Shown here: one piece after another, positions 1,762-37,396 of the stretch
Layout: every line of letters starts with the position of its first letter
How positions within the stretch are numbered: position 1 is the first letter of the stretch
Assembly (NCBI GenBank): GCA_021732995.1
Contig: JAKFWA010000049.1
Location: 1-37,396 of the forward strand
From: Planctomycetaceae bacterium
Lineage (GTDB): Bacteria > Planctomycetota > Planctomycetia > Planctomycetales > Planctomycetaceae
Direction of reading: 5' to 3'
Length of the DNA stretch: 37,396 nt
Program-made: the position numbers and the translations under genes
Notes under the pieces: model-generated
Seen by the model: only the letters and a program-made list of their open reading frames with translations
Told to the model about the DNA's origin: nothing
Databases searched by the model: none

Positions 1762-1770
1762 GCGTTCGCG

Positions 1771-1776
1771 TGAGGA
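1771..1776 (+). promoter_or_regulatory. Ribosome binding site TGAGGA for the U32 gene
   Basis: TGAGGA ends 10 bases before the GTG at 1787 and supports this start, which gives the family-typical N-terminus (KPELLAPAGDW). Confidence 0.6.
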
Positions 1777-1786
1777 TTGTCCTGCT

Positions 1787-9048: not shown

Positions 9049-12000
9049 TCAACGATCTGTCTTGTCGTTGAGCGGAGCTTTGGCTGGTGGAGTGGCTTCA
9101 GGTTTCAGACCGTTCGCGGTTGCTGGAGCTCCTGCGATGGTTACCCAGTTCGCGTTCACAATCGTTCCATGCTGCTGGTGCCCGGACGTATCCTTGAGTT
9201 CGGATCCCTGGCCTTCCTCGAAGCGATAGAGAGCAACCGTGTCTTGGTCCGTGGTGAACGTGGCGGGCGGATCGAAGTCGTCTGCGTATCTCGTCGCTTG
9301 CGAGAACCGCGCCTGAAGAATCTGGCCGGCGTACGCATCCTTGCCGTCCGAGGCCGCGCCGAAGGTCGCGATTCCGTTCGCGGCAGTCACATCGGGGCAG
9401 GGGACAGGCTCGCCATGACGGATGCCATTGACAAACAGCCGGATGTGCGAGCCGTCCCAAACTCCGGCGATATGACTGGGCTTCTTCCAATCTACGTCGG
9501 ATGTGGCGACGACATGGTGCAGGACCGATTTCGCATCGCGCACGCCGAACCACCATTGGCGACCGCGCAGACGCAGCACGCAATGATCCGCAAATCCCGC
9601 GACGATTCCCATCGTCACCGGCTTAGACGGTTGCACCCACGCCTCAATCGTCATCGGTCGAGTCGGATCCATGACCAGCGCCGGAATCTCGACGCGAGCA
9701 CCGCTGCCATCGAATTGGAGGGCCGACGTTTCCTTTGGCGCAGCGAGTTGCTTCTTGACCGCGTCCACCGACAGCGCCACGCGGAATCCCCAGCCGTTGA
9801 GCCGCATCTCGGGTGGGACCGCCCCTCGGTTGGAGGAGCGACAATGCACCGCGTGCAGTCCCAACGCTCCACCGCGCTGGACGCGCTGACCGCCGGGGGG
9901 CAGGATGCCCAAAGGATCAACAACCGGTTGGTCCTTGAGTTGCTCGTAGTACTTCTGGTCCCAGCCGTCGCGAACCCACTCCCACGCATGGCCGTGGGTG
10001 TCGAACAACCCGAACGGATTGGCTTCAAGCTGCCCAACGGGATAACTGCGGAGTTCGCCTTGCTGACCGAATCTGGCTCCGCGCGCGAGCGACGTTTCGT
10101 CGTTACCGGTCCAGTGCGAAGTGGTCGTCCCGGCACGGCAGGCGAACTCCCATTCGGCTTCCGTGGGAAGGCCATACGCATCGGCAGACGGCTGGCCGGA
10201 CGAGTCCTTTCGATGCGGTAGCGATCCCGTCAACTTTTCGAGCTGCCCCAGCTTCGAGCAGAACTCAACGGCTTCGTGCCATGAAACCGTTTCCACCGGA
10301 TGCGACTGAGTATCGAGGCCGCTGACTTCTTTCCGACCCGCACCCTTGGCCGAAAAGTGCGACGGGTTCTTGCCGATGACTCGTTCGTACTGCGCCTGCG
10401 TGACCTCGGTCGTCCCAAGATAGATCGGCTGAGTCAGCCTCACCAGATGCCGGGGGCCTTCGCTCTTCACACGATTCCGCCACGCCGAATCATCCGGGGA
10501 AATCTCTTTCAGTGTCGCTTCGATCTCTTCGGGCGTGCTTCCCATCGTGAACTCACCCGGCGGAATGAGCATGAACTTCATGTCGAGGCCATTGGTGTAC
10601 TCGACCGGCACGCCAAGCTGACTCGCCCATGCCTCCTGATGCGCGCGAGCCTGCTTCGCGTCGAACGGTGCTTTGGCAGGTGACGGAGCTGGACCATTCG
10701 GTTTCGCAATTTGCGGAGCGGTGACGGACTTCGGGAGTGACGGAGTGAGACCTGCGGTTGTCGCTGGGGCATCGAGCACTCGCAGGATGCGAAAGCCGCG
10801 GTCGTCGTAGCGGTACGACAGGTTGCTGCTGATCCGGAACGCCGACCGGCCGAAGGCGGGGACGCCGCCCCAACTGCCGCCCCGACCCACTCGGCGCGAG
10901 GTTCCACTCGAACCGACCGGATCGTTCTGAGGCGACTTCTCATACCATTTGCTGTCGTACCCGTCGTGACACCATTCCCACACGTTGCCATGGATGTCGT
11001 ACAAACCAAACGGGTTGGCGGGCCGCAATCCCACAGACTGAGGCCGACCACTCGCATTGTTCTTCGACCAGCCGAACTGATCCATGTTCTTCCAGTCGTC
11101 GCCAAACCAAAACTGCGTCGTCGTGCCCGCTCGGCAGGAGTACTCCCACTCGGCTTCGGTTGGGAGCCGATACCCGTTCGCATTCGCAAGCAGCGTCCAA
11201 GTATCGCCCGAGCGTTGGTAACACGTATCGAGTTTTTCTTGGACACTCAGCCAGTTACAGAAAGCCACGGCGTCGTTCCAATTCACTTGCGTCGCCGGTG
11301 AATCATTCGTGACGGCGTGGCCCGGAGTGCGCCACGTCACCTTCAGGTTGTCGGGCTTCACCTCTTGCGGTTTTCCCGCTTCTGAATTGCCACCAAACTC
11401 TTCGGCCTGCGTCTTGTACTTCGTCTGCTCGACGAACTTGGCAAATTGCCCGATCGTGACCTCGTGTGTACCCAAACGAAACGGCTTCGTAATCCGCACC
11501 GAGTGCTGCGGGCGTTCCTCTGCGATCCTCCCCTTCAGCGAAGGTTCCTGTGTCTCTTCCGCGATCTTCGATGCCAGTTTGATCTGTTCGTCAGAACTGC
11601 CCATCAGGAACTCGCCGGGCGGGATGAGGATCATCCTCGCGCCGACGGAGTTGGTCGTCTCGACCGTCGTGCCGAGATGCTTGGCCCACACCTCTTGATG
11701 CGCGCGAGCTTGCGCGGCGTCGAACGGGACTTTGGCGGGTGGCGGAGCGGGATTGAGACCACTGGCCCGCGATGCCGTCAGGCTGGTGAGTTTGCGAATG
11801 ACTCGAAACGAGATGGTATGCGTCGGCACGTCTCCCAAAGCACCGCCTCGACTGGCGCTACGGCCGATTAACGGAGAATTGAAGGCAGTTCCGCCACGTG
11901 TGCCGCGAACGTTACTGATCGGATGGGTGACAGGATCAACGGCGGGGGGTGTTTTGTAGTTGGAAGTCAAATCACCGAAACACCATTCCGCAGCGTTGCC

Positions 12001-15000: not shown

Positions 15001-18000
15001 AATTCCCAGGTCTTTTAGCTGTTTGCAGTCCTTGAAGATGGCCAGCCCTTGTGCCGTCACCTTGCCACACTCCAGCCTGAGGCCCTGCAAGTCCTTGCAG
15101 TCCTCGAAATTGGCCAGTCCGGTGTCGGTCACCCCTTGGTACAACAGCCCAAGCCGATTCAATTTCTTGCAGTCCTTGAAATTGGCGAGGCCAGCATCGG
15201 TGACCGACATGTTGTAGCCGAGGATGAGCTCCTGGAGGTTCTTGCAGTCCCTGAAATTAGCGAGGCCTGCGTCTGTCACCTTCGTGCCTGCTAGTTCCAG
15301 GGCGACGAAATTCTTGCAGTCCTTGAAATAGGCCAGACTGGCGTCTCCCGGCGCGTGTAGCTTGAGATGAAGTAGATCCTTGCAGTCCTTGAAGTCGGCC
15401 AGGCCCTCGTCGCTCACCGGGGTATTCTGCAGAAGATCGACTTCCCGCAACTGGAATTTCTCACGTGGCAACTCGGGGACCGCCGTGATCCACGGAGTGT
15501 CTGCCTTAAGGCGCACGCTACCGCCAATCGACAGCACGTATTCGGCGGTGCGTCGGTCGGGATCGCCAGCCAGGACCGTACTTACCAATCTGTTCGACTT
15601 GATCCACTTCGCACCGACGATCTTGCCGTGATGGTTGTTGCCGGACGAGTCCTTCAAAACATCGCCAACTCCTTCATCGAAGTGGTACAGAGCCAGCGTG
15701 TCTTTGTCGGGCGTGAAGCGCGGTTGGGGCGAAAAGTTCTGCGTATAACGCGCGCTCGTCGAGATGCGCACCAGGCCGATATCGCCATCGAAAAAGCGGT
15801 CGAAGCCACCATTGGTGGCGATCGGTGAACCGCCGATCGTCAGCACTTCACCCGCCTGCGGTACGGAGTAGGAGTTCGCCGGCGCCTGTTGGGCTTGCCC
15901 ATTCACGAACAGCGTCGATTTCTGGCCGTCCCACACGCCGGCGATGTGACACCAATCGCGCGATGGTGGCGGCGAATCTTCTCGCTGAGCCACCCAGTGG
16001 TCGCCAGCATAGCGCCAGAGTGCCCAGGCATTCTCGACCGGCCCAATGTTGAAGCCCCGTGGGCCGGGCATGATCACCACCTGCGAATCGCGTGGTGTGG
16101 CGACCTTGGCCCAGGCCTCGATCGTCAGCGGATCGAGCGAGCTTTTGGCCTTCAGTGTCGGCACATTGACGAAAGCGTCCTTCCCGTTGAAACGGAGAAA
16201 GTTTTTTGGGGCACCGGCCAATGCGTTAGACTGGGACTGGTTACGCACCCACTTCGCCCCGACGATCGTGCCGTGATGGTTGTTGCCGGACGAGTCGCGC
16301 AATATCTCGCCCATGCCTTCATCGAAGTGATAGAGTGCCAGTGTGTCGGCGTCCTTTTCGAAGCGCGACGGAGGCGTAAAGCGAGCATCGTAACGAGCGG
16401 CCTTGGAGACACGGATGCCGTCAATGGTGCCAATGTAGTTGCCCCCCAATGTCAGCCGCTCGCCCAGGCCAGGCTCCAATTCCTGCTCTGCGCTCGACGA
16501 TCCGATCTGCTTGCCATCCACGAACAAGCGGAGTTGCCGGCCATTAGCGACGCCCGCCAAATGCACGCGCTTGGTCAACTCGGCTGGGGAGACGCCATAC
16601 ACATAAAATTTTGTCTTGTCGTCCTTGACCTTGTTCGACAGTAACCAAGCGCCACTGTTATTGGCCCTATCAAGTTCCAGTGTGGCATTATTCAACAGGA
16701 CGATAAAACCGACCTTTTCGCTTCGACGTTCGGGAGTCACAAACGCTTCGAGCGTGTATTTATCCAGACGCCACCAGTCAACGTCCTGAACGTCAACGTA
16801 ATCGTCTCCGTCAAATTGCAAGTGGTAGTCACTGCTGGCGGCGTCGAAGGGAGCAACGGCGAGGGGCGGAACGGCAGTTATCAGCGAGCTGTCGACCGGC
16901 ACCCACTTCGCCCCGACGATCTTGCCGTGATGGTTGTTGCCAGACGAGTCCTTCAGGACATCCCCGACACCTTCATCGAAGTGGTACAGGGCGAGCGTAT
17001 GTTCGTCGCGGGCGAATGGTCCTGGCGGCAACTTCAATGTGGGCTCGCGTGCAATCCGCGACATGCGGATTTCATCAATCATTCCAGCAAAATAAGCACC
17101 TCGGCCATCCGGCAAAGGCAGGGGATAGCCCGCTCCAATCAGCGACAATACGTCATCGCGACGCGTTGCCAGCGGAACCCATCCGTCGGGAGCAAGCTGG
17201 CCATCCACGGCGAGCGACACGCGATCGCCATTCAACACGGCCACCAGGTTCACGCAGCGGTTGGGAATCAATGAGCCCACAACAGCTTTGGCGCTCGTGG
17301 CGTTCGGCGCTTGCAGGATGGCTCCCCAGTTACCGTCACCACCGGCCAATCCAAACCACGTTGCGCCACAGAGTTGGACAATGCCCTCTGCAGGGGCAAG
17401 GCGATGGGGCATCACTCGCGCCTCAATGGTCAGAGGATGGCTGCCGTCGAACTTCAACGTGGGGAGTTCGACATACTGGTCCACCCCATTGAATTCGAGG
17501 GCATAGTCTTCCGACGGAGAGTTCGCTTTGACAGCGGTGGCAGTTGCGGTTTCGCCTGTCTTTGGGGCGAGTGATTGCTTCTTCGACGGGTCATCATTTG
17601 CAACTTGCGTGTCGCCCGGTTTCCGAGTCATTGCAAAGACAACTGCGAGCAACAACCCCACGGCGACAGCCAAGGCTGCCAGCATCGCAGTTCGCGGCTT
17701 CTTCACGCCTCCGATTGCAGTTTGCGACAGCCGCAGTCGCTCTGCCTGCTCGATGGTCAGCGATTGTTCGGTGCGCGGGTCAGTCTCAGCTTCACCAGCC
17801 GACGAGATCATCGTCTCCGAGAACTCTGATTCGGCTGCAACATTCGGTCTCGGACTCACAATCGTCGGGCTACCGACATCGGCCGAACTATTGCCAGACA
17901 ACTCCTTTTGGAGTTGTGGCATAGTCGCACTGCTCCCGGCCGTCGAACCGCTGACGAATGTGACGGTGCGCGAACCACCGGGTAGGCAGCGTTCCAACTC

Positions 18001-19089
18001 CGCGATGACTTCCGTCATCGACTGCGGGCGGTCTTCGGGTCTCTTCGCGACCATGCGGCGAAAGACCGCTTCCAGTGCCGGAAAGGATTCGTCGGGCGTA
18101 TCGAATTCAGGCAGGCTGGCGAGGTCGATTTCTGTCACCGTCTCGGTGGTGGCGTTCTTGCCTCGATTCACCTTGCGCGACTCGTCCACCAGCGAAGGGA
18201 TGGCTCCGTTCTGATGAGCCATCAGCTTCTTCATCATCGTGTCGCCGTCGTACACAACCTTGCCGGTCAGCAGGTAGTACAGCGAGCAACCGAGCGAATA
18301 GATGTCGCTCCGCGCATCCGCGTGCTTCGTGTCCATCGCCTGTTCCGGGGACATGTAGTCCACAGTCCCCATGATCGTGCCGGTGCTCGTGAGGCCCGCG
18401 CCTTCCGAACTGCCGCCGACTGATCCGTCGATGCGCGCCAGGCCCATGTCGAGGATCTTGACGTTCCCCTTGGCGTCCATCAGCAGATTGGCAGGCTTGA
18501 TGTCGCGGTGAATGACACCTTGCTCGTGAGCGAACTCAAGTCCTCGCGCAGCCTGAATGATGCAGCGAATCGCTTGCTCAACCGGCAGCGGCCCCTGCCT
18601 CTTCACGCGCACGGCCAGATCGCTGCCGTCTACGTACTCCATCACCAGGAAGTGAGTGCCCTTGGCCTCGTCAGCATCGTCAGCCGCGACGATGTTGGGA
18701 TGTCGCAACTTCGCAGCGGCTTCGACTTCGCGATGGAAGCGTTTCAGCGCATCCGGAGTTTGTACGGCCGCGGGTGACATGACCTTGATCGCCACCAGCC
18801 GTTTCATCCGCTTGTGCTCGGCCTTCAGCACCATCCCCATGCCACCCTGACCCAGCTTGTCGAGGACGACATAGTTGCCGAGGACCAGCGTCTTGCCTTT
18901 GCCAGCATAGATCTGCTCGGCCTGGTACTTGGTCAGCTTCTTCTGCTTGACCAACTCCTTTGCCAGTTGCTCGCCATCCTTGGGCTGTTTGTCCTCGGGA
19001 AGCCCCGCCAGCAGCGCAGACACATCCTCCGCAGACAGCAACCCGCTGGCGGTCAGATGATCGCGAAATTGATCGGTCGATAACGCCAT
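9049..19089 (-). CDS. K1: giant receptor-like Ser/Thr kinase with 4 LamG, LRR and 5 FGE-sulfatase domains
   Basis: 3346 residues. A conserved N-terminal helical region (1-72) precedes a Ser/Thr kinase (~73-370) with GQGGMG (81-85), VAIK (Lys102), [10 protein letters not shown] (His194-Asp196) and DMG (214-216); activity is predicted. A low-complexity linker leads to one transmembrane helix (~467-487). Everything after it is predicted extracytoplasmic: three LamG domains (~527-731, 753-950, 962-1165), each ending in DSSGNNHHG; ten ~24-residue LRRs plus a cap (~1224-1487; [13 protein letters not shown] type); five FGE-sulfatase domains (~1497-1787, 1799-2107, 2119-2440, 2452-2774, 2807-3113), each introduced by an [16 protein letters not shown] linker; and a final LamG (~3122-3320). 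None of the five FGE domains has the catalytic Cys pair, so they are likely binding modules. The start is the family-conserved [18 protein letters not shown]; no strong ribosome site is seen. K2 ends 207 bp upstream. Confidence 0.92.
12671..12717 (-). repeat. 47-bp FGE-linker repeat, copy A in K1
   Basis: This 47-base stretch is identical to 13628-13674 and differs by one base from 14534-14580. It encodes the [16 protein letters not shown] linker before an FGE domain. Confidence 0.9.
13628..13674 (-). repeat. 47-bp FGE-linker repeat, copy B in K1
   Basis: Identical over 47 bases to 12671-12717, at the matching place before FGE domain 2. Confidence 0.9.
14534..14580 (-). repeat. 47-bp FGE-linker repeat, copy C in K1
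   Basis: Matches copies A and B with one mismatch, before FGE domain 1. More diverged copies of the same linker lie near 10610-10660 and 11665-11715 in K1, near 20215-20265 in K2, and near 33585-33630 and 34565-34615 in K5. Confidence 0.88.
14628..15420 (-). repeat. LRR-encoding tandem repeats (~72 bp) in K1
   Basis: About ten 72-75-bp units encode a consensus [20 protein letters not shown]. On the plus strand the core CTTGCAGTCCTTGAAATTGG recurs with few changes, so the units are close relatives. A Cys is kept at the FKDCK position in eight of the ten units, and the block ends in a diverged cap (ALPQCKINW). Confidence 0.85.
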
Positions 19090-19102
19090 ATTGAGTCATG
19101 AA

Positions 19103-19129
19103 CTTCAAGACACGCAGCGAATCTTGAAG
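19103..19129 (-). promoter_or_regulatory. Inverted repeat in the K1 leader
   Basis: CTTCAAGA (19103-19110) and TCTTGAAG (19122-19129) are perfect reverse complements around 11 bases. The element begins 14 bases upstream of the K1 ATG, where a recognisable ribosome site would be expected but is not seen. It may be an operator or an mRNA hairpin that affects translation; neither can be decided from sequence. Confidence 0.45.
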
Positions 19130-19164
19130 AGCTAATCTCGCCAGCCAGGTTTTCAGAAGAGCCC

Positions 19165-19192
19165 GCAGCAGTAAGCCTACGAATCCTGCTGC
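19165..19192 (-). repeat. Small inverted repeat in the K2-K1 gap
   Basis: GCAGCAG (19165-19171) pairs with CTGCTGC (19186-19192) around 14 bases. It is short and could be chance; listed because the same 207-bp gap holds two other hairpins. Confidence 0.35.
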
Positions 19193-19232
19193 TGAAATGC
19201 ACTCTAATCGTTCATCTGTGGCCGTAGCTCAA

Positions 19233-19275: not shown

Positions 19276-19296
19276 CTCCACCGGTACTGCAGGTTG

Positions 19297-23157: not shown

Positions 23158-23217
23158 GCATGGTTCCAGAAACGATGAACGAACAGCGTACTGTCTCAGC
23201 TCGCGATGTAACCGAGC
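23158..23217 (-). repeat. Duplicated leader, copy before K2
   Basis: These 60 bases align with 28277-28337 before K3 at roughly 80% identity with a one-base gap. They include the ribosome site (GGAA here, GGAG in K3) and the core ACATCGCGAG followed by GACAGTACGC. Either a conserved regulatory leader or a footprint of gene duplication. Confidence 0.8.
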
Positions 23218-23224
23218 TTCATGT

Positions 23225-26200: not shown

Positions 26201-28276
26201 GGCCAACTGCAACCCATCGCCCGACAGGCAGGAGTTCTCCCGGAGTCCAGGTTTGCCGTTGATGGCGTCTGGTAGTGGTTCCACCTTCGAGAACTCTTCG
26301 TCACGAGATGCTCGCTGTCCGATCATCAGTCGGTTATTTGAGTAGAAGGCGATCGTTTTTTCGTCGTCCGTCAGCGAGGGATTCAGCTCGCGACCTCGAG
26401 TGTTCACACCAGGACCGAGACTCTCTGGCTGACTCCATTCGTACTCATTCCCATCGCTTGGATCGAACGGCCATCGTCCGGATGCGTCACTCACAGTGAT
26501 CGTGCTGGGTGTTGATGGCGTCGAGGGCAGTTGAACAGTGACGGGCGCTGCCTCGATCTTCTTGTTGCTGTCAGTGATCGCGCTGACGAAGCCTTTCTTC
26601 TCAATCTTCCTCTGCGAAAGCACTTTGCCATCAACGTGGACCGCCAGGTTGTCATCGACCAGATCAACCTTGACCTTGGTTTCCTCACCCTTCTTGAGTA
26701 CCAGGGAATCGGTCTCGAAGGAGACATCGCCGCGCGTCACCACGAATTTCTTGTCGCCCGCTTTCAATGAGACCGGTTTGATTCCGCCGCCTTTGAACTT
26801 GAGCTCTGTACCTTTGAGCTTCATCTCAACGGCAGGGTCAAGAATCTCCACGACCAGCGTGCCGTCAGCCGTCGGCCAGAGAAAGATCACCCCCAAGAGC
26901 AGCGCAATTAGACCGACGGCCGCACTAACTAACGTCTGCTTTGTTCCCCAGCCTGCGGACCTGGTTGAGCCATCAACTTCTTGTGTGGGTGCCGGTCTTC
27001 TCACTGTGTTCTGAGTTTGTGGATCCGTACCGACTTCGCCGTTCGAGGTCAGTAGGGTCGCGTCCATGCCGGCGTTCGTTGGAGCACTCGGATCCAGCGG
27101 TAGACTGACCGCGCTTTCTGCCGAGATGCCGGCAAGGAAATCTTGCAGTGGCACCTCACCCATTTCGGCCGGACGGTTCGCAAAGCTGACGGTTGGTGAT
27201 TCGGCGGAGCGACAGCTCTCCAGAGCAGCGATGACTTCGGTCATCGTCTGAAAGCGATCTTCGGGTCGCTTAGCGATCAGGCGATGAAAGACTTCATCCA
27301 GCGTCTTGAGCCGCGCATCAACAACCAGCGTGCTCATGGACTTGCCCTCAGGTTCGCGGACAATCATCAGATCGCGACTCAGGATGGGCAGCGGCGCATT
27401 ACGGTGGGCCAGCAGCTTCTTCATCACCGTCGCGCCTTCGTAGGTGCAACGTCCGGTCAGCAGGGCATAGAGCGAACAACCCAGGCTGTAGATATCGCTG
27501 CGAGCGTCGGCGTGCTTGGTGTCCTCGGCCTGCTCGGGAGACATGTAGTCGATGGTCCCCATGATAGCGCCGGTGCTGGTCAACTCGGCTTGCTCACCGC
27601 CAAGTCCGCTGGCGTCAATGCGCGCCAGGCCCATGTCCAGAATCTTGACGACACCTTCTCGATCCAGCAGCAAGTTCGCTGGCTTGATGTCGCGATGCAC
27701 GATGCCGCGCTTGTGAGCGAACTCCAGTCCGCGAGCCGCCTGCAAGATGCAGTCAATCGCGAAGTCGAGCTGCAATGGACCGTTCTTCTTGACGAGTGCC
27801 GAGAGGTCGAGGCCTTCTACATACTCCATCACCAGAAAGTGCTTGCCGTTGGCTTCATCAGCATCGAACGCCATCACAATATTGGGGTGCGTGAGTTTGG
27901 CCGCCGCCTGCACTTCGCGTTGAAACCGCTTGACGGCATCCGGCGCTTTCATCGCGTCGGGCGACATCACCTTCAGCGCGACCACGCGATCCATGCGCCG
28001 ATGATGAGCCTTCAACACCATGCCCATGCCACCTTGGCCAAGCTTCTCCATGATGGTGTAGCTGCCCATCACCAAGGCCTTGGCCTTACCCGCGTAAATC
28101 TGTTCGGCCTGGAATTTTGTCAGCTTCTTTTGCTTGACCAGCTCGCGCGCGAGTTGTTCGCCATCCTTCGGCTGTTTGCCATCTGGAAGCGATACCAGCA
28201 ACGCATCGACATCGTCAGTGGTCAGCAACCCGCTGGCGACGAGATTGTCTCGGAACTGATCGATTGATTGCGGCAT
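23225..28276 (-). CDS. K3: receptor-like Ser/Thr kinase with PEGA-like, two PD40 propellers, NPCBM, C-type lectin and beta-sandwich domains
   Basis: 1683 residues. N-terminal helical region (1-72, MPQSIDQFRDNLVASGLL), kinase (~73-360) with GQGGMG, VALK (Lys102), HRD (194-196) and DMG (214-216), transmembrane helix (~446-467). A PEGA-like beta domain follows (~469-560; DGTLVVEILDPAVEMKLKG), then two WD40/PD40-type propeller regions (~606-879 and ~879-1160), each opening WPFDxxDGxEYEWS; an NPCBM carbohydrate-binding domain (~1167-1316; VVYLDALTEKS, VVYDLGGRYATF); a C-type lectin-like domain (~1334-1459; FGGHRYLLVDSF, FLGATNASGEWRWVTG) without the usual Cys pairs or EPN/QPD calcium motif; and a C-terminal concanavalin-like sandwich (~1488-1683). 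It has no FGE domain. ATG 28276 is supported by GGAG six bases upstream and by alignment with K4, rather than a start 18 bases earlier. Sugar or glycan sensing is inferred. Confidence 0.92.
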   Translation of the reverse strand: MPQSIDQFRDNLVASGLLTTDDVDALLVSLPDGKQPKDGEQLARELVKQKKLTKFQAEQIYAGKAKALVMGSYTIMEKLGQGGMGMVLKAHHRRMDRVVALKVMSPDAMKAPDAVKRFQREVQAAAKLTHPNIVMAFDADEANGKHFLVMEYVEGLDLSALVKKNGPLQLDFAIDCILQAARGLEFAHKRGIVHRDIKPANLLLDREGVVKILDMGLARIDASGLGGEQAELTSTGAIMGTIDYMSPEQAEDTKHADARSDIYSLGCSLYALLTGRCTYEGATVMKKLLAHRNAPLPILSRDLMIVREPEGKSMSTLVVDARLKTLDEVFHRLIAKRPEDRFQTMTEVIAALESCRSAESPTVSFANRPAEMGEVPLQDFLAGISAESAVSLPLDPSAPTNAGMDATLLTSNGEVGTDPQTQNTVRRPAPTQEVDGSTRSAGWGTKQTLVSAAVGLIALLLGVIFLWPTADGTLVVEILDPAVEMKLKGTELKFKGGGIKPVSLKAGDKKFVVTRGDVSFETDSLVLKKGEETKVKVDLVDDNLAVHVDGKVLSQRKIEKKGFVSAITDSNKKIEAAPVTVQLPSTPSTPSTITVSDASGRWPFDPSDGNEYEWSQPESLGPGVNTRGRELNPSLTDDEKTIAFYSNNRLMIGQRASRDEEFSKVEPLPDAINGKPGLRENSCLSGDGLQLAFVVREGTDDVWLSRRTTANEPFGPPVRLDAPVNSQASDSVVVFSPNGLTLCISSARPGKFAGSDVYSFTRPSLATNFGNEQNLGRDVNAAGMIVPNWISNDRKLLVATAMISPPFRTSWHSRSSEAEPFGKGQSLGTRIENTPMGGARLSVDGQRLYFHSRDIPGGKGELDLWMTRRVMKTKRVPETRWPFDLTDGREYEWSKPQNLGTGVNSSGPDFVAGISGDERTIYVHSGGHARVSTRPSREATFPAATKVAGLPEVGFPGSAASFSANGLLAAFSQRTQSNRDEIMFATRPTLDDPFGELKPANLNMGDMPAGGSLKHPVLSANGLTLLVSATYRGSAGADIRMFKRSGLDQDWGASELLPGAVNTADWDMPFYISNDRRLIIAGNQSGSGPGTVREMKFFTRNNADEPFGPGQTLGIPLGNAETSSTNGGFCLSGDGRSLYFHSAPLPGGHGQIDIWFTRRVVKTAAAPTEVVYLDALTEKSFLGLGPLRKPGMEKFTAEFADTFNQAGAPPAHGLIIHPAPQQDGQVVYDLGGRYATFNTLARCSRNRNRGNSLTVEVFGDDKLLAKTVSLATVKETGAPLTVDVRGVNELKIVINAEKTTVSSHVLLTDARLTLVGNAKLPISNGKSPMIPAEALSFGGHRYLLVDSFGTWTEARTAAERMGGHLVAINSLEERNWIFDNVWSKRKRPLMDVGSRMFLGATNASGEWRWVTGEPLDRALFLGRLNDAPDKALAWMSDTSWNLVSPDYDQNRYFYFLVEWDTPGPEIGKQAAPTCVAGSAAGTINLLSLVDLSQDVAAGTWTKDGSGFATTPTRVDSQLRLPVEPGEEYTLRAAFVSKRGNVSFVLPFESKGLEIFLSGGNVHVLQHGLNNPSNPRAPLPSSMNDGKRHEVLIEVARTTNQEANLRLTVDNELALEWKGTREQLQKIDGRYGSERSLVVGVFLPIPDTSATLLEASLTTTKGTTKLLRGASSKAGTEGSNSASK

Positions 28277-28337
28277 GCAGGGCTCCATGAACAATGAGCA
28301 ACAAGCGTACTGTCTTAACTCGCGATGTCACCGAGCC
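28277..28337 (-). repeat. Duplicated leader, copy before K3
   Basis: Partner of 23158-23217. GGAG (28283-28286) stands six bases before the K3 ATG. K1 and K4 leaders do not show the same sequence. Confidence 0.8.
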
Positions 28338-28343
28338 TAGCCA

Positions 28344-28499
28344 TCATTTTGCCTTGTCGCGCTGCCCAGCAGCCTGATCGTTCGCATGGTCGTCTTCACT
28401 CTGGCATTGGGTCGGTTTGGCACAACTGTCAGGACGCGGCAGGAAGACGCCGACAACCAGCCGGATCGGAACGAGCGGGCCACCGGTGGGAACATGGTC
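28344..28499 (-). pseudogene. Relic of a K3-type C-terminal tail behind the K4 stop codon
   Basis: Reading on past the K4 TGA (28500-28502) in the same frame gives about 51 more sense codons before the next TGA (28344-28346). They include RLVVGVFLPRPDS, which matches SLVVGVFLPIPDT in the last ~40 residues of K3. The remainder is diverged. The simplest reading is that K4 once had the lectin and sandwich domains of K3 and lost them by a deletion that joined the NPCBM end to the last tail, with a stop near the junction. Confidence 0.7.
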
Positions 28500-31400
28500 T
28501 CACGGTGCCAGCCGGGCGTCGATGAGGAGCACGTGACTCGCCGCATTCGTCTTTTCGGCGTTGACGACGATCGTGAGTTCTTTGACCCCACTGACGTCGA
28601 CCATCAGCAGGGATCCGCCTTCTTTCGCCGTCGCGAGGTTCACGGATTTAGCCAACGACTGGCCATCGCCAAACACTTCCACGGTCAGTGAGTTGCCGCG
28701 GTTGCGGTTGGGGCTGCACAGAGCGGTTGCCGCGAAGGTCGTATACCGACCGCCAAGGTCATACACGACGCGGCCATCCTGCTGATTGGAGGGGTGAATG
28801 ATGATGCCATGAGCGGGTGGGTCGCCGGTTTGTTTCAGGGATCTTTGGAAATCTTTAGCGAACGGATCTGTTCCGGCCTTGAGCAACTGCCCGACGGTCA
28901 TTGACGACTTTTCGGTCAGCGTATCGAGATAGACAACATTTCCGGAATTGCCCGACGTCACACCACTCTTCACCACACGGCGGCTGAACCAGATGTCGAC
29001 CTGACCCTGGCCGCCGGGAATCTTCGCCGAGCAGAAATAGATGCTGCGACCGTCGCCGGACAGTCGAAAGCCGCTGTTGGAGTCGTGTGTCTCCGCGTCG
29101 CCCAGTGGAATGCCGAGCGGCTGCCCGGTGCCGAATGGCTCCTGAGCATTGTTCCTCGTGAAGAACCGCACTTCACGCACCGGACTAGAACCTGACCCAC
29201 GCTGACTCGCAGCGATCAGAAACTTGCGGTCATTGGAGATGTAGAAGGGCATGTCCCAGTCAGCCGTGTTGACTTCGCCGGGCAACGCTTCCGACGCCCC
29301 CCATTCTTCATCCAGCGTCTTGCGGGTCAGCATCCGAATATCCGCTTGTCGTGATCCGCGATGGGTGGAGCAGGCCAGTAACGTCAGCCCATCTGCTGAC
29401 AGAAGCGGATGTCGCGACGCGGCTTCAACTCCGTTCACATCAACCTTGGCATACTTTGGTGAGCCGAATGGAGCGAAGGGCGTCGGTCGAGCGGCCACCC
29501 AAACCTCGTCAGCATTCTTCTGCGACTTCATCACGAACGCAGCCACCAGACCATTGCTCGAAATAGATGCCGAACTTCGCCCGGCATCTGAACTCGCGAA
29601 ACCGTCTAGTTTCGTCGCCTTAGGGAAGTCCACGTCCCGGCTCTGACGCACACTGACGCGGGCATCGCCCTTCAGAGAATGAACAAAAATCCGGCGTTCG
29701 TCATCACTGATCCCCGCCACAAAGTCTGCTCCCGGTCCGTTGACGCCAGATCCGAGGTTTTCCGGTTTACTCCACTCGTACTCTTTCCCGTCCGTAGGAT
29801 CGAACGGCCAATGCACAGCAGGCTGATCGGACGCAGGTGGCTGCGAGGATTTGGTGAGCGATGTGGATGTGTCTTCGAATGCCTGCTTGCCGCCTGAGAC
29901 TGCGCTGACGAAACCCTTCTTCGAAACCTTACGCTGCGAAAGCAATCGGCCATCGGCGCGGACGGTCAGGTTGTCGCCAACGAGTTCAACTGTGACTTTG
30001 GTGTCTTTGCCCTTCTTGATGACCAGCGAGTCGGTCTCGAAAGCCAGATTTCCACGAGTCACGACGAACTTCGTCTCGCCCACCTTCAATGAGGCTGGCT
30101 TGATTCCTTCGCCCTTGAATGCGAACTCCGTCCCTTTGACTTTCAGTTCCACTTCAGCATCAAGAATCTGCACGAGCAGCGTGCCACTCGGAGCCGGCCA
30201 GAGAAACAGCACGCCCAGGACGAACGTGATCGCACCAACAGCCGCAGCGAGTGACTTCTGGTTGGCGCCCCAGCCGGCAGGCTTCGCCTTACCGTGTCTC
30301 ACGTGCTCTTCGACGGACAGTTTCAGAGTGTTCTGAGTTTGCGGGTCCGTACCAACCTCAACACTCGAAGTCAGCAGCGTGGCCTCCATCGCCGGGCCTG
30401 CGGGAGCGCGAGGATCCAACGGTTGGCTGATCCCGCTATCTCCAGAGATACCGGCGAGGAAATCTTGCAGTGGAACCTCACCAAGCTCGGGCGGTCGGTT
30501 CACGAAGTTGACGGTTGGAGATTCAGCAGAACGGCAGCGTTCCAGAGCCGCGATGACCTCCGTCATACTTTGAAAGCGGTCTTCAGGACGCTTGGCGATC
30601 ATCCGATGGAAGACCTCATCCAACGCCTTGGTCCGGGCATCGAGCGTCACCGTGCTGACGCTCCTTCCCAATGCCTGTCGAGCGGCGACCATGTCGCGAC
30701 TCAGAATGGGCAACGGTGCATTGCGGTGGGCCAGCAGTTTCTTCATCACCGTCGCGCCGTCGTACGTGCAGTGTGCCGTCAACAACGCGTACAGCGAACA
30801 ACCGAGACTGTAGATATCGCTCCGCGCGTCGGCGTGTTTCGTGTCCTCCGCCTGTTCGGGGGACATGTAGTCGATGGTCCCCATGATCGCTCCGGTGCTG
30901 GTTAATTCAGACGGTTCAGCGCCGAATCCATTCGCTTCGATTCGCGCCAGGCCCATATCCAGAATCTTGATGACGCCCTCCCTGTCCAGCAGCAAGTTCG
31001 ACGGCTTGATGTCGCGATGGACAACGCCGCGCCTGTGGGCGAACTCCAGTCCGCGCGCCGCCTGCAGAATGCAATCGATCGCGAAGTCGATCTGCAGCGG
31101 TCCATTCTTCTTGACGAGGGCGGAGAGATCGCGGCCTTCGACGTACTCCATCACCAGGAAGAATTTGCCGTTGGCTTCATCGGCATCGAACGCCATGACA
31201 ATGTTGGGGTGCGTCAGCTTGGCTGCCGCCTGCACTTCCCGCTGAAAGCGTTTGACGGCATCTGGGGCGCTCATCGCGGTGGAGGACATCACCTTCAGCG
31301 CAACCACTCGGTCCATGCGGCGGTGATGAGCCATCAACACCGTGCCCATACCACCCTGGCCCAGCTTCTCCATGATGGTGTAGCTGCCCATCACCAGGGC

Positions 31401-31598
31401 CTTGGCTTTACCCGAGCAAATCTGGTCGGCCTGAAACTTGGTGAGCTTCCTCTGCTTCACCAGTTGGCGCGCCAACGCCTCGGCGTCCGCAGGCCGCTTC
31501 CGTTCGGATTGATTCAACAGCAGCTCCGCGGCCGCAGTCGCGTCCGTCAAACCGCTGGCGGTCAATTGCTGACAGAAGTCGTCAAGCGACTGAGGCAT
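28500..31598 (-). CDS. K4: receptor-like Ser/Thr kinase with PEGA-like, PD40 and NPCBM domains, C-terminally shortened
   Basis: 1032 residues and the closest relative of K3 in the window. N-terminal helical region (1-72, MPQSLDDFCQQLTASGL), kinase (~73-360) with GQGGMG, VALK (Lys102), HRDIKPSNLL (194-) and DMG (214-216), transmembrane helix (~452-470), PEGA-like domain (~472-560; SGTLLVQILDAEVELKVKG), one PD40 propeller (~596-875; EYEWSKPENLGSGVN) and NPCBM (~885-1032; VVYLDTLTEKS, VVYDLGGRYTTF). Its propeller is closer to the second propeller of K3 than to the first. The protein stops right after the NPCBM end (LIDARLAP), where K3 continues with a lectin and a sandwich domain; the matching tail is visible in frame behind the stop. 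A 175-bp gap separates it from K5. No good ribosome site is seen before ATG 31598; the start rests on alignment with K3. Confidence 0.92.
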   Translation of the reverse strand: MPQSLDDFCQQLTASGLTDATAAAELLLNQSERKRPADAEALARQLVKQRKLTKFQADQICSGKAKALVMGSYTIMEKLGQGGMGTVLMAHHRRMDRVVALKVMSSTAMSAPDAVKRFQREVQAAAKLTHPNIVMAFDADEANGKFFLVMEYVEGRDLSALVKKNGPLQIDFAIDCILQAARGLEFAHRRGVVHRDIKPSNLLLDREGVIKILDMGLARIEANGFGAEPSELTSTGAIMGTIDYMSPEQAEDTKHADARSDIYSLGCSLYALLTAHCTYDGATVMKKLLAHRNAPLPILSRDMVAARQALGRSVSTVTLDARTKALDEVFHRMIAKRPEDRFQSMTEVIAALERCRSAESPTVNFVNRPPELGEVPLQDFLAGISGDSGISQPLDPRAPAGPAMEATLLTSSVEVGTDPQTQNTLKLSVEEHVRHGKAKPAGWGANQKSLAAAVGAITFVLGVLFLWPAPSGTLLVQILDAEVELKVKGTEFAFKGEGIKPASLKVGETKFVVTRGNLAFETDSLVIKKGKDTKVTVELVGDNLTVRADGRLLSQRKVSKKGFVSAVSGGKQAFEDTSTSLTKSSQPPASDQPAVHWPFDPTDGKEYEWSKPENLGSGVNGPGADFVAGISDDERRIFVHSLKGDARVSVRQSRDVDFPKATKLDGFASSDAGRSSASISSNGLVAAFVMKSQKNADEVWVAARPTPFAPFGSPKYAKVDVNGVEAASRHPLLSADGLTLLACSTHRGSRQADIRMLTRKTLDEEWGASEALPGEVNTADWDMPFYISNDRKFLIAASQRGSGSSPVREVRFFTRNNAQEPFGTGQPLGIPLGDAETHDSNSGFRLSGDGRSIYFCSAKIPGGQGQVDIWFSRRVVKSGVTSGNSGNVVYLDTLTEKSSMTVGQLLKAGTDPFAKDFQRSLKQTGDPPAHGIIIHPSNQQDGRVVYDLGGRYTTFAATALCSPNRNRGNSLTVEVFGDGQSLAKSVNLATAKEGGSLLMVDVSGVKELTIVVNAEKTNAASHVLLIDARLAP

Positions 31599-31773
31599 GG
31601 TGGAAATGCAGTCGACAGATACGGGTTACGAGATCGAATAAACCGAACGTTGCAGTTCTTCCTCGTCATCATGATTTGGAAAGTCAGGGATGAGGGCGCA
31701 TTCCACCGGCATTGGCACCGCACGTGCACAATAGACTATTCGAGGCGGACAAGACCGTCAAAGTTGAACATCC

Positions 31774-34700
31774 TTAACGAGTTTTCCGAGGCGTGGGCTC
31801 GGTCTTTGACTTCGGCACGCGACGCACAAACCAGAGGTCAAAGTCTCCCTGGCCACCATCGCGCTTTGCTTGGAAGTACAGCGTGCGACCGTCGGCAGAG
31901 ATGCCCGGCGATCTGACTGAGCCGTCACCACCGGCAATCGGGTCGAGCATCCGAGCGGTGCCGAACGAGCCTGTCTGACCCTTCCACAGCACGAGCCAGA
32001 GCGAATGGCGACCGTCCGAAGCACGACGGCAAAGAACAGCTCCGCGGCCGTCAGCGGTGGGTCGGAAGTGAGTTTCGTCGTCAGCGGAATTCACCGTCGA
32101 GCCAAGATTCTCCGGCGGTCCGAACGGATCGCTGAGCGATGAGCGCCGTGCGGACCAGATGTCCGTTGCTCCAAGTCCGTTCGGACGATTCGACGCGAAA
32201 TACAGTGTCAGGCCGTCAGGTGAGAACGCACCGCACTCTTCTCGCTGATCGGTGTTGACCGGCGGATTCAGAGGCACGGGCGGTCCCCATTTTTCCTGAG
32301 GATCTGCTCGCCGACACAAATAGAGGTCCAGATCACCTTCTGAACCTGGTCGATCGGATGCGAACACGATTTGTAAACCGTCAGCACTGAGGGAGGGAGA
32401 ATCATCGGTGGCAAACGAGTTCACCACCCGAGGTAAGTTCGTAGAAGTCTGAAAGGATTCTTCGACAGATGCTCTACGACTTTCCCAAAGATCAAATCCA
32501 CTTTGACCTTGCGCGCGATTGGACGAGAAAATTAGCGTCAGTCCGTCAGGAGTTAGGAACGGATTTGCATCGCTTTGACTGGAGTTCACCGCGGCTCCGA
32601 GATTCTGTGGCTCAGACCATTCGTAATCCGGCGAAACCAGGATTGTTGTGGCATTGGGCGGAGAGTACGGAGACCGCACGACCCGAAAACCGCCCTGAGT
32701 GTTCCTCAGGAAGGGATTGATGTCGTAACGAAACGCCGAGCGAGCGCTGACGCTATGGGCGTTCCAGCGCCCGCCGCGCATCACGCGATCAGTTCCGAAT
32801 TCGGAACCGATCGGATCGACTCGAGATGGCTCGGCATAAACTTCGGACGAGTACCAGTCATGGCACCATTCGCGAGTATTGCCGTGCATGTCGAACAACC
32901 CGAACGGGTTCGGCAGCTTCCTGGCAACCGGTTGAGGATGGCCCGCTTTCACTTCGCCGGTCCAGCCATGTTCGCCAATGTGACTGGCCTGATCTCCGAA
33001 CGAAAACTGAGTCGTCGTACCGGCGCGGCACGCATATTCCCATTCGGCCTCGGTCGGCAGGCGATAGCCGTTGGCGCCGGGAATCAGTTTCCAGTCCAGC
33101 TTGCCGCTACTTTCGTAACACGGGTCCAGCAGTTCTTCTTCGCTGAGCCAATTGCAATAGGCAACGGCATCGCCCCAGGTCACTTGAGTCACCGGATGCT
33201 CGTCTGTGGTGGAATAGCCCGGAGCACGCCAAGTGATTTGCACGTTCTCTGGCTTCGAGTCTTTGGGAGCCGTCCAGGTGCTGGCGTTGCCGGCGCCGAA
33301 CTGCTCGCCCTGCGTCAGGTACTTGGTCGCGTCGACAAAACGACGAAACTGCCCAACGGTCACTTCAGTCGCGCCGATGCAGAACGGTCGAGTGACGGTC
33401 ACCTTGTGTTGCGGCTGTTCCTCCGGAATCCGCGAGCGTTCAAACGCGGTCGGTGACAACTTCGCCTCATCGACGATTTTGAGCCCCGCAGCGATCTCTT
33501 CCGGCGTGCTGCCCATCAGGAACTCACCCGGCGGGATGAGGATCATCTTGGCACCCACACGATTGCTCGTCTCAACCTGCGTACTCAAATGTTGAGCCCA
33601 TGCCACTTGATGCACGTGAGCTTGCTCTGCTCCGAACGGGGCTTTCGTTGGTTGTGGTGCGACGGGTTTGGCCACAGATGAAGGCACAACGACCGGCACG
33701 GCTGCAGGTCTGCTGATCTCGCTCACAACGCGGAACCCGAGAGTATTGAATCGGAGTGTCGGTGGGGCGAGATCACGGTACGCACTGCGACAGAAGGCCG
33801 GGTTGTGATACCAGTGGCCGCCGCGGACGGCATATGTCGCATTCGTTGAGGAAGCCGGAACTGTGTCCTTAGGTTTCTCTGAAGGACCGTCTTCTTCGAA
33901 TTTGCTACCGCACCACTCTTCCATATTCCCGTACATATCAAACAAACCAAACGGGTTCGCCAGGCGGGTAGCAACTGGGTGGCAATTGGAATTCGCATTG
34001 CCGATATACCAGCCGTATTGATCCAGCTCAGACGCAGTATCACCAAACGAATACTGCGTTGAAGTTCCTGCTCGGCAGGCGAACTCCCATTCCGTTTCGG
34101 TGGGCAACCGATAGGTCGCCTGCTCCTTTTGCGAGAGCCATCGGCAATAAGCGTTCGCGTCGTTCCACGAAACTTGAGTCACGGGGAAGGTGTCGTAGAG
34201 ATCATAGCCCGGGGCCTTCCAGATGAAGGGCTTTTTTGAATCGGCAGTGGTGTCGGTTATGGCTTGAGAGGAAGTGTTGCCCAATCCGAATCGCTCAGCA
34301 TCGGTGACATAACCAGTGTCGGTCACGAATGCTCTGAACTCTGCAACCGTGACCTCGGTTCTCGCCATTCGAAACGGCTGCGCGACGACTGCTCGATGCT
34401 GAGGCCGTTTGGATTTGCGAATTCGGTCAATCCGGCCAGCCTCAACTCCCCCCGCTTCGGCGAGTTTCACGGCGGCATCCACCTGCTCATCGGTGCTGCC
34501 CATGAGGAACTCGCCGGGCGGAATGAGGACCATCTTCGTGTCGACGCTGTTCGTCGTTTCCACCATCGTGCCAAGATGCTCAGCCCAAGCTTCCTGGTGC
34601 ACGCGGGCAGTCTTTGCGTCAAACGGGGCTTTAGCAGGATCGGGCTCAACGGGTTTAGCCGTGGGAACGCTCAGAAGGCGTTCCACCGTTGGTTTCAAAG

Positions 34701-37396
34701 CGGCTCCCAGTGCCCGATACCCTGCAAGGGACAAATCGACCCCCTTCAACAAGTCCGTTTGAATGTTGCCGGCAGAATCCAAAAAGACGGGATCCAAGTC
34801 GACGTAGTGGGCTGTCTTGTTGTCCGCGAGTTGCTGGATGGCCTTGTTCAGAGCTTTGCATTGCTCACCCAATTCGCTCTTCGGGAGCACTGATGTGAGT
34901 ACCAAAGCTGAGGCCGGAAACTCATGTCTCAGCTGGTTGACCAACTGTCGATAGTTTTCGGCGCTCTCTGGTAAAGGCACATTACGACTGATGTCCGCGT
35001 AACCCGCTTGCACGATGACGACTTTGGGAACAACCGCCGCGAACTTCTGGTTCCTCAAGTCATCCAACACGGTTGCCACCGCAGATGTTGCTACAGCTCC
35101 GTTGTTCAAAGTGCGGTCGGGAAAGATGTGCTCCAAAGCCGCAGTGCCAGTGGCTGCGCGCCACCGCGACAAAAAGCCGTCTCCCAGCAGTAGGATATCG
35201 TTAGTGAAGGTTGGAGCCGTTGCGTTCGTCGTTGACTCTGATCTTGAATCGACGCGGATCCATGTGGGATCGACGATCTTGCCGTGGCGGTTGTTGCCCG
35301 AAGAGTCCCTAAGCACGTCCCCGGTGCCTTCATCGAAATGGTAGAGAGCCAGCGTGTCCGGGTCGGCCGCTAGGCGTGCGACGGGGGTGTAATCAGCCTG
35401 ATACCTGGCGACCTTTGAGAAACGCACTTCATCAAGTGTGCCAGTCATCGGGTAGTCGATCCCCTCGCCCTCGGGGCTCGCGCCGAGATAGAAGGGCAGA
35501 TTCGACGGCAGGTACTCTCCCTTCAACTCGGCCGAAGCTTCGAGCCTGCCATCGACAAACAGCCGCAGCTTGCCACTGTCGTAGACCGTAGCCACGCGAT
35601 ACGTACGATCGGCAACGAGCGGACGCGGAGACGTGATCCGCACATAATCGTCCTTGCCATTGGCGCGCCGGAACGCCAGGAACGAGATCGAATTGCCCAG
35701 GATATCGATCCCCATGCCTTTCGCTTCGCTGTCGGAGATGACCGCATGCTGCTTCGGTCCTGGCAGCAGGGTGAACTCGATCGTCAGGGGCGTATCGCCG
35801 CCGTGCACGAGTGGTGTCCGCACATGCGATTGTTTGCCGTCGAACTTAAGCGCAGCATCAATAGACGCGGTATCTGCGTTTGGAGTACTGGCTGGCCAGT
35901 TCGGCTTTGCGGCCGTGGCGGGAAACTGTTGCTCATTGAGGTGCAGTTCGACGTCTGGACGCACCTGACGGAACTTGGCGATGCCTGCGGGCGTAAAGGT
36001 GAAACTGCTGGGCGGCAGATAGATGCGCGCTTGCTTCAATGTTGGGATGAGTGCAAGGCTCTCCAGATCATCGTCGGAGAACGAGCCAATGCATGTTCCT
36101 GGGAAGACAAGCAGGTTCGATAGACGCGTAAAACCGCGAAGCTGTTGCCACGGGGACGCATCGTTCGCGTTTAAGTGGGCTAAGATCGTCAGGCGTGCAA
36201 GACGTTCCCGCAGCCTTCCCAACCGTGAAACGGTTGCTCCTGAAGAGAGATCGCCGTCAATAGTCAGTTCTTCCAAGTTCGGAAGAGACTGCAGTGTCTC
36301 AACCCCGGCATCGGTCAAATGCGTCGTGAAACAGCGAACATTCTGCAGCTTGCTGAGGCGCTGCAACGGTCGTAGCGATGCCGTCTCGTGATGCGCAAGG
36401 ATGACGGATGTCAGGTTCGGCATGCGCTCGCAAATGAGCGTCAGTCCCTCATCTGTGATCCCGCGACTTCCGATATCGAGATTGGTTAGTCCCGGGAGTT
36501 GCGGCATGTTTCGCAAGCCCGCATCCGTGATGGGAACATTGTACGGGTTCGTGTACTCGCCGATACGCAAATGCGTAAGCTTCGGCCAGTTCGTCAGGTG
36601 AGGTAATAGATCATCTCCCACCCCCGTTCCTCGAACGTCAAGGTTCCAGAGCGACTTGACCGCCGCGAGCGATTTTACGCCCGCCGCTGTGATCTTTGTC
36701 TGACCTCGAAGATCCAGTGCTGCGACCCTTCGGCATCCCGCCAGATTCAAGAGGTCCGCATCGGTCACGCGTTCCGCATTGCCATACAACCCTGCGAGAT
36801 TCAGATAGAACTTCGCCGATGGCAGTTTGCCATCGGGCACGGCCATCCCTAGCCCATTTTCATCGTAAATTTCAACGACGCCTCCTCTCTTCAGCACCCA
36901 CTCGGCCGCTTTGCGTTCGGCGTCATAGTCGACAGCGTCGCTGACGCTGGCGACTGCTATGGGGGGCATCGGTGTAGGGATTGCGACGTTACTGGCTGTT
37001 GCGGGAACGTCCGGTGTGGGCTTTGCCGTGGCGACCTTTGCTGGATCAGATTCCGGATCCGTTGGCTTGCCCCCGCGAAAAGCGAACGCGGCGATGACGG
37101 CCAGCAACAGACCGCCAATCGCCAGCATAGCCAGCTTGCGACGCGATGCTGATGACGCGGGAGTCGCGGCTTCCTCAGCCGACTTGATCGGAGCGGACGT
37201 GATCTCACTCTGGTCGGCCTGAAAGGTCACCGTGGCGTCGGTTGCTTCGGACCGCTCAGGTGCAACGACCGTGGCCGCGTCTGGATGCGACGGCGGCGCA
37301 CTTATGGCGCTCGATACGGGCTTGGCATGTCGCATCTGCGAGTCGTTCAGTTGCAACGGGGCCGTTCGCGAAGCTGGCCTGCCGAATGATTCATTC
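31774..37396 (-). CDS. K5: receptor-like kinase family member (kinase part beyond window) with LRR, LamG, degenerate SGNH, two FGE and PD40 domains
   Basis: 5'-truncated at the right edge: the frame is open to 37396, so the TTG at 37356 is probably internal, and a kinase domain is expected just outside by analogy with K1-K4. Visible are 1873 residues, numbered from the edge. A Ser/Ala/Pro-rich linker precedes a transmembrane helix (~86-107; LAMLAIGGLLLAVIAAFAF). Outside: irregular LRRs (~202-490; TDAGLRNMPQLPGLTNLDI), LamG (~512-715; ends DSSGNNRHGKIV), an SGNH/GDSL-like domain (~731-905) with its catalytic residues replaced, two FGE-sulfatase domains (~922-1227, 1250-1579) and a C-terminal PD40 propeller (~1586-1866; DYEWSEPQNLG, several SPDGLTLYFASNR-type repeats). 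The FGE motifs RGGHWYHNPAFCRSAYR and RGGRWNAHSVSARSAFR lack the Cys pair. It is the most upstream member of the array seen here. Confidence 0.88.
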   Translation of the reverse strand, partial: NESFGRPASRTAPLQLNDSQMRHAKPVSSAISAPPSHPDAATVVAPERSEATDATVTFQADQSEITSAPIKSAEEAATPASSASRRKLAMLAIGGLLLAVIAAFAFRGGKPTDPESDPAKVATAKPTPDVPATASNVAIPTPMPPIAVASVSDAVDYDAERKAAEWVLKRGGVVEIYDENGLGMAVPDGKLPSAKFYLNLAGLYGNAERVTDADLLNLAGCRRVAALDLRGQTKITAAGVKSLAAVKSLWNLDVRGTGVGDDLLPHLTNWPKLTHLRIGEYTNPYNVPITDAGLRNMPQLPGLTNLDIGSRGITDEGLTLICERMPNLTSVILAHHETASLRPLQRLSKLQNVRCFTTHLTDAGVETLQSLPNLEELTIDGDLSSGATVSRLGRLRERLARLTILAHLNANDASPWQQLRGFTRLSNLLVFPGTCIGSFSDDDLESLALIPTLKQARIYLPPSSFTFTPAGIAKFRQVRPDVELHLNEQQFPATAAKPNWPASTPNADTASIDAALKFDGKQSHVRTPLVHGGDTPLTIEFTLLPGPKQHAVISDSEAKGMGIDILGNSISFLAFRRANGKDDYVRITSPRPLVADRTYRVATVYDSGKLRLFVDGRLEASAELKGEYLPSNLPFYLGASPEGEGIDYPMTGTLDEVRFSKVARYQADYTPVARLAADPDTLALYHFDEGTGDVLRDSSGNNRHGKIVDPTWIRVDSRSESTTNATAPTFTNDILLLGDGFLSRWRAATGTAALEHIFPDRTLNNGAVATSAVATVLDDLRNQKFAAVVPKVVIVQAGYADISRNVPLPESAENYRQLVNQLRHEFPASALVLTSVLPKSELGEQCKALNKAIQQLADNKTAHYVDLDPVFLDSAGNIQTDLLKGVDLSLAGYRALGAALKPTVERLLSVPTAKPVEPDPAKAPFDAKTARVHQEAWAEHLGTMVETTNSVDTKMVLIPPGEFLMGSTDEQVDAAVKLAEAGGVEAGRIDRIRKSKRPQHRAVVAQPFRMARTEVTVAEFRAFVTDTGYVTDAERFGLGNTSSQAITDTTADSKKPFIWKAPGYDLYDTFPVTQVSWNDANAYCRWLSQKEQATYRLPTETEWEFACRAGTSTQYSFGDTASELDQYGWYIGNANSNCHPVATRLANPFGLFDMYGNMEEWCGSKFEEDGPSEKPKDTVPASSTNATYAVRGGHWYHNPAFCRSAYRDLAPPTLRFNTLGFRVVSEISRPAAVPVVVPSSVAKPVAPQPTKAPFGAEQAHVHQVAWAQHLSTQVETSNRVGAKMILIPPGEFLMGSTPEEIAAGLKIVDEAKLSPTAFERSRIPEEQPQHKVTVTRPFCIGATEVTVGQFRRFVDATKYLTQGEQFGAGNASTWTAPKDSKPENVQITWRAPGYSTTDEHPVTQVTWGDAVAYCNWLSEEELLDPCYESSGKLDWKLIPGANGYRLPTEAEWEYACRAGTTTQFSFGDQASHIGEHGWTGEVKAGHPQPVARKLPNPFGLFDMHGNTREWCHDWYSSEVYAEPSRVDPIGSEFGTDRVMRGGRWNAHSVSARSAFRYDINPFLRNTQGGFRVVRSPYSPPNATTILVSPDYEWSEPQNLGAAVNSSQSDANPFLTPDGLTLIFSSNRAQGQSGFDLWESRRASVEESFQTSTNLPRVVNSFATDDSPSLSADGLQIVFASDRPGSEGDLDLYLCRRADPQEKWGPPVPLNPPVNTDQREECGAFSPDGLTLYFASNRPNGLGATDIWSARRSSLSDPFGPPENLGSTVNSADDETHFRPTADGRGAVLCRRASDGRHSLWLVLWKGQTGSFGTARMLDPIAGGDGSVRSPGISADGRTLYFQAKRDGGQGDFDLWFVRRVPKSKTEPTPRKTR

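Follow-up and report, generated by a model that had tools for sequence, protein, structure and literature searches.

A tandem array of six receptor-like Ser/Thr kinase genes in a Planctomycetaceae bacterium, with kinase domains alike within pairs and differing ectodomains

Results

The window analyzed here (i.e., the whole stretch of 37,396 nucleotides, positions 1-37396 of contig C32 in a genome of 9.39 Mb assembled into 135 contigs) contains five long minus-strand frames, located at 9049-19089, 19297-23274, 23225-28294, 28500-31598, and 31774 to the window end. With start codons aligned with those of neighboring genes, g2 begins at about 23157 and g3 at 28276, which leaves intergenic gaps of 207, 67, 223, and 175 bp. 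A first-pass annotation of the window had described five adjacent minus-strand genes separated by 67 to 223 bp, at least four of them with full kinases; the frames and gaps are as described, and four kinases are complete inside the window, but the array continues past the window to a total of six minus-strand genes (g1 to g6), with a NIPSNAP gene at one end and glnD at the other. The window breaks off inside g5 at a gap of 100 N (contig positions 37397-37496), and the kinases of g5 and g6 thus lie outside it; the g5 kinase is found across the gap at contig positions 37497-38735, and g6 occupies 38849-44143, beyond which lie glnD, two ammonium transporter genes, and a dnaA gene (all at locus L001, 8264-15609). 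Once one copy of a 127-base overlap is dropped, g5 is a single open frame of 2244 residues. Automated run-calling gave the array as four plus two genes owing to the broken g5 frame; the count of six is our own reading. The window also contains a U32 peptidase gene (1637-4288), which adjoins a gene for a planctomycete cytochrome protein (PSCyt1, PSCyt2, PSD1) with an additional LamG domain (4339-8082). Neither promoter-like sites (1 found, 5.3 expected) nor terminator-like sites (14 found, 17.4 expected) were in excess over shuffled sequences between 18000 and 37396, and these counts offer nothing firm for or against co-transcription.

The largest gene, g1 (9049-19089, minus strand like all features below; 3346 aa), encodes a kinase domain (18016-18873), a transmembrane stretch assigned by hydropathy (17629-17685), three LamG domains, LRRs, five FGE-fold domains (9766-14523), and a fourth LamG domain. 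g2 (19297-23157; 1286 aa from the aligned start) combines its kinase domain (22168-22941) and transmembrane stretch with DUF1080, LamG, and FGE-fold domains, while g3 (23225-28276; 1683 aa from the aligned start; kinase domain at 27248-28060) carries, after its transmembrane stretch, two propeller-like regions, an NPCBM domain, a weak match to a C-type lectin, and a LamG match below the cut-off. In g4 (28500-31598; 1032 aa), the kinase domain (30570-31382) and transmembrane stretch are followed by a propeller-like region and an NPCBM domain, and propeller and NPCBM regions are common to g3 and g4. The part of g5 inside the window (31774-37396) includes the transmembrane stretch, LRR-like repeats, a LamG domain, an SGNH-like domain (34711-35139), two FGE-fold domains, and PD40. 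The g6 ectodomain consists of FGE, LRR-like repeats, and DUF1080; its residues from about 1180 to 1590 gave no Pfam match above the cut-off, and a single-sequence structure model of this region, with a mean pLDDT of 39, was set aside. The ectodomain types that had been named from the letters alone were found by Pfam, although the g3 LamG (22.4 bits against a cut-off of 22.9), the g4 PD40 (20.1 against 20.9), and the g5 LRRs (20.8 against 40) fall below their cut-offs and the g3 lectin lies barely above its own (23.1 against 22.6).

The array holds 9 of the 36 FGE matches in the genome. Active-site cysteines of formylglycine-generating enzymes are spaced C-X4-C, and such a pair, sought after the RGG motif, was present in none of the nine array domains as compared to three of nine other FGE stretches of the same genome, which served as a control. 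The pair was likewise found in none of 24 kinase-linked FGE domains when those of relatives were included, a weaker result than that for the nine since some rows cover only part of the domain and two belong to a frame next to a kinase frame (L154). SGNH hydrolases are recognized by their catalytic Ser, Asn/Gly, and His blocks, with the motifs GDS, GxND, and DxxH; in the SGNH-like domain of g5 (Pfam, 6.8e-14), inspection by eye found GDG for GDS and GYAD for GxND, with DxxH absent, so that the catalytic residues are apparently lost. With the cysteine pair missing and the SGNH residues apparently gone, these parts, and the FGE-fold domains in particular, look like binding modules, which upholds and sharpens the earlier view that the ectodomains consist mostly of binding folds. 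The extract of PMC12123546 names two active-site cysteines in the formylglycine-generating enzyme. "Sulfatase-modifying" domains on kinases of this kind should be checked for the cysteine pair before they are annotated as enzymes.

In all six proteins the Hanks-type motifs are intact (i.e., the glycine loop, a VAIK-type lysine, HRDIKP, DMG in place of DFG, and GTxDYM(A/S)PEQ), and the Pkinase Pfam match in each gene has an E-value of 4.9e-50 or below 1e-48. Each protein also has a single hydrophobic transmembrane stretch, by hydropathy only, within residues 442 to 487. The receptor-like topology of an N-terminal kinase, one transmembrane stretch, and a long C-terminal ectodomain thus holds for six of six, and the locus comprises single-pass receptor kinases of the Hanks Ser/Thr type arranged in tandem. 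The first-pass annotation had further described a constant kinase with motifs at identical positions. This is accurate for g1 to g4, with the VA(I/L)K lysine at position 102, HRD at 194-196, and DMG at 214-216, but not for g5 and g6, in which the lysine is residue 101. Over the N-terminal region and kinase, identity is 79% for g1/g2, 81% for g3/g4, and 100% for g5/g6, as compared to 62 to 69% across pairs within g1 to g4 and 48 to 51% between g5/g6 and the other four; because of these last values, the description fits the pairs better than the whole array.

The g5 and g6 genes share an identical run of 1273 bases (37497-38769 and 42905-44177), with homologous but diverged sequence on either side. 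The same 127 bases flank the 100-N gap on both sides; the copy inside the window (37270-37396) is identical in g6 and marks the lower edge of the exact tract. Fourfold degenerate sites differ between the two genes at 0 of 189 positions in residues 1-360, 1 of 33 in residues 361-420, and 15 of 31 in residues 421-480, whereas the same comparison found no tract of such identity in g1/g2 or g3/g4. Old divergence around the membrane part combined with a young kinase part is the mark of gene conversion, and the tract fits a recent conversion event, with the caveat that it ends at an assembly gap and that its exactness therefore depends on the assembler, which may have merged small differences between g5 and g6. 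We nevertheless regard the repeat as genuine, given that unique sequence leads into it and that the reading frame stays open over the join.

With regard to the origin of the array, the leader of g2 (23158-23224) is homologous to that of g3 (score 40, as compared to a maximum of 12 in 100 shuffles), and a 95-base query comprising the g2 leader and start matched three places in the genome, all within the array; this homology, found only here, ties the g1/g2 and g3/g4 groups together by local duplication. When the g5 kinase was used as a query against its own genome, the array kinases were the six best of 51 matches. With g3 as the query the array again supplied the first six matches in the genome, but g5 and g6 had a bare lead (303.9 bits, next kinase 296.6), and many kinases of relatives outscored them. 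Three kinase trees were built: one of 64 rows (duplicates, domains below 180 bits, and partial domains excluded), for which the bootstrap had not settled; one of 38 of these 64 rows, picked after the first tree was seen; and one of 41 rows. g6 was omitted as identical to g5. Trees with relatives gave the pairs, and the 41-row tree placed g1/g2 with a kinase from the relative G012 and g3/g4 with L125, a sister kinase from a planctomycete metagenome-assembled genome (support 99/95), while g5/g6 were given no firm position. Tests of a single clade with relatives included (p = 0.352 for g1 to g4 and 0.136 for g1 to g5) neither showed nor rejected one clade. The description of the array kinases as related is supported. 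At the G012 locus L154 (169-11666), a kinase frame of the g1/g2 type lies between a further kinase gene, ahead of it, and a distinct frame, behind it, that has FGE domains; this may be a small array containing a split gene.

The kinases of g3 or g4 are 64 to 67% identical to those of g1 or g2, yet their ectodomains do not match one another at an E-value of 1e-3. As FGE modules remain 56 to 72% identical between genomes, this mismatch points to a difference in content rather than decay. The FGE domains of L125 group (98/94) with a domain carried by L122 (2-4819, contig C18), a distant kinase encoded in the genome studied here, in a tree from which short, low-scoring FGE stretches were excluded and in which 11 of 21 inner branches were open; between L125 and L122 the FGE module (the first FGE-fold domain of L122) is 72% identical and the kinase 42%. 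In a further relative, G009, two kinases that are 89% identical carry FGE plus LRR and LRR only, respectively, and a third, 64 to 70% identical, carries DUF1080 and weak LRRs. Kinase and module histories are thus out of step in both L125 and G009, in agreement with the swapped ectodomains that had been proposed, and these comparisons support the idea that kinase lineages have exchanged ectodomain modules. By contrast, the relative G027 has, on one contig of 7.6 Mb (L105 with L106, 8756-20894), four adjacent same-strand kinase genes, three of them long with a WD40-type ectodomain and the fourth short (546 aa); the long members have kinases that are 76 to 82% identical and ectodomains that can be aligned over their full length at 26 to 39% identity. 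Judged by these alignments, the G027 array is a case of duplication without exchange and counts against generality.

Of the 97 distinct kinase frames in the genome, those of the array make up the longest run on one strand, followed by a run of three; locus L114 (contig C89, 5097-14085) has three adjacent same-strand kinase genes with kinases only about 30 to 34% identical to each other. In other genomes, inspection by eye of the matches listed showed kinase runs of roughly two to four members. GlnD is present in 32 of 40 relatives, and the surroundings of glnD were surveyed in 15 of them, one from the same genus (G001, G002, G004, G005, G007, G009, G011, G014, G016, G019, G022, G023, G024, G027, and G028), covering 583,531 bases, for several on one side only or up to a contig end. 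None of the 15 has a run of two or more kinases around glnD. Single kinase frames lie about 3 to 12 kb from glnD in six (G002, G004, G005, G009, G014, and G024), and G001 has one about 45 kb away; these seven frames represent no excess over the approximately four to six expected from densities of 45 to 76 kinase matches per 7.3 to 7.6 Mb (G002 and G027). The G009 frame (L187, 6525-8552) encodes an array-like kinase (376 bits) on the opposite strand, about 3.6 kb from glnD. A conserved neighborhood of the array and glnD was thus rejected; the synteny check yielded only single kinases at background density, and in the stretches surveyed the array has no conserved location. This goes part of the way toward the synteny outcome that the first-pass annotation had named as refuting it.

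Discussion

We propose, with a probability of roughly 0.6, that g1 to g6 form a six-receptor tandem array built by local duplication, conversion between g5 and g6, and module exchange, in which the receptors sense and the pairs keep their output alike. The kinase would lie in the cytoplasm and the ectodomain in the periplasm or at the cell surface, where its modules may bind glycans, wall material, or peptides; ligand binding would cluster the receptors, and the kinases would then phosphorylate each other and subsequently cytoplasmic targets, which would be common to g5 and g6 at least. Duplication combined with recombination would keep the output part alike within pairs and let the input part change. 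The likeliest mode of working, as suggested by topology and domain types, is sensing in the periplasm or at the surface with cytoplasmic kinase output. An output shared by g5 and g6 is plausible given the identity of their kinases; one output for the whole array would be an inference from the same kind of comparison, which is strong only for this pair.

Other accounts of how the array arose were considered. The g5/g6 kinase identity could be an assembly artefact in which two similar repeat copies were merged, and a 100-N gap with a 127-base overlap at the tract edge, in a genome of 135 contigs, speaks for this; however, the tract has differing flanks (five mismatches in 29 bases upstream, about 81% identity downstream), so that only copies that already resembled each other much more closely than these flanks could have been merged. 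The reading frame also runs open over the join, and we consider an artefact improbable. Plain tandem duplication, in which modules are not exchanged and ectodomains simply change faster than the kinases, would account for the pattern of the G027 array and for the propeller and NPCBM regions in both g3 and g4, but it sits poorly with FGE modules that stay recognizable across genomes while the g3/g4 and g1/g2 ectodomains do not match one another, and with the discordant histories in L125 and G009; we consider it quite improbable. Diversification of the FGE-fold ectodomains by a diversity-generating retroelement is hardly credible, even though, among solved structures, the g2 FGE domain is matched best by Treponema denticola variable protein 1 (2y3c, 4.1e-18) and the genome has six reverse transcriptase matches. 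Enzymes of such retroelements differ at the QGxxxSP motif, whereas the four of six reverse transcriptase loci that were inspected all have QGxxxSP and gave no blastn match to the array (0 of 4); a reverse transcriptase search of contig C32 gave no match, and this candidate was rejected. Two of the genome's loci, L004 and L005, encode reverse transcriptases that resemble each other, are 462 and 445 aa long, and have YADD and QGAVLSP motifs.

With regard to output, the receptors may instead have separate, insulated outputs, the array being a by-product of duplication. Only g5 and g6 have identical kinases, the others being 48 to 81% identical, which speaks for insulation; on the other hand, the catalytic motifs and the end of the activation segment are alike in all six, even though these do not discriminate targets, and we regard insulated outputs as unlikely but worth keeping in view. 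A bolder form of our proposal is concerted evolution, in which gene conversion would homogenize the kinases of neighbors, whereas new ectodomains would be assembled from glycan- and protein-binding modules that belong to a common pool also used by unrelated kinases. Recombination would have its edges in the juxtamembrane linker, and many inputs would feed one output; we offer this as a tentative and rather doubtful extension. If true, the locus would parallel, in a bacterium, the receptor-kinase clusters of plants. The array is a compact case in which kinase and sensor histories can be separated inside one locus. The conversion tract is the part most deserving of a direct test; should the g5/g6 kinase identity be confirmed, these two receptors, alike up to the linker and different beyond it, would allow the one-output idea to be tested directly.

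Several elements of this picture are already published, namely STK expansion, these accessory domains, tandem duplication, and identical output with variable sensors. As described in the available portion of Odelgard et al. 2024 (PMC11032199), membrane STKs of Planctomycetota have a cytoplasmic Pkinase domain, mostly one transmembrane stretch, and periplasmic accessory domains, among which the sulfatase-modifying (FGE) domain is the third commonest overall and DUF1080 the commonest of the strictly periplasmic ones; STK expansion is lineage-specific, and similar architectures arise repeatedly. The array resembles these STKs in its Pkinase domain, single transmembrane stretch, and FGE and DUF1080 domains, and the sensing placement proposed here agrees with the domain placement given there, whereas a single locus, gene conversion, module exchange at the sequence level, and a test of the FGE active site do not figure in that portion of the report. 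The same portion cites Perez et al. 2008 for strain-specific STK duplications, some side by side, and the present genes are likewise tandem-duplicated kinases. A literature search that covered few subscription journals turned up nothing on bacterial STK arrays whose genes undergo gene conversion or exchange modules. The G027 array, also made up of adjacent same-strand kinases, differs from g1 to g6 in that its long members keep one WD40-type ectodomain. The nearest working analogue, as far as the excerpt of PMC9769880 describes it, is provided by Tlp2, Tlp3, and Tlp4 of Campylobacter jejuni, in which signaling domains are identical and sensory domains about 30% identical, so that one output serves several inputs. 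These are chemoreceptors with sensory domains of the dCache_1 family only, while the array consists of kinases with different folds; an identical signaling domain joined to differing sensors is found here in g5 and g6, subject to the assembly caveat, and gives way to 48 to 81% identity over the array as a whole.
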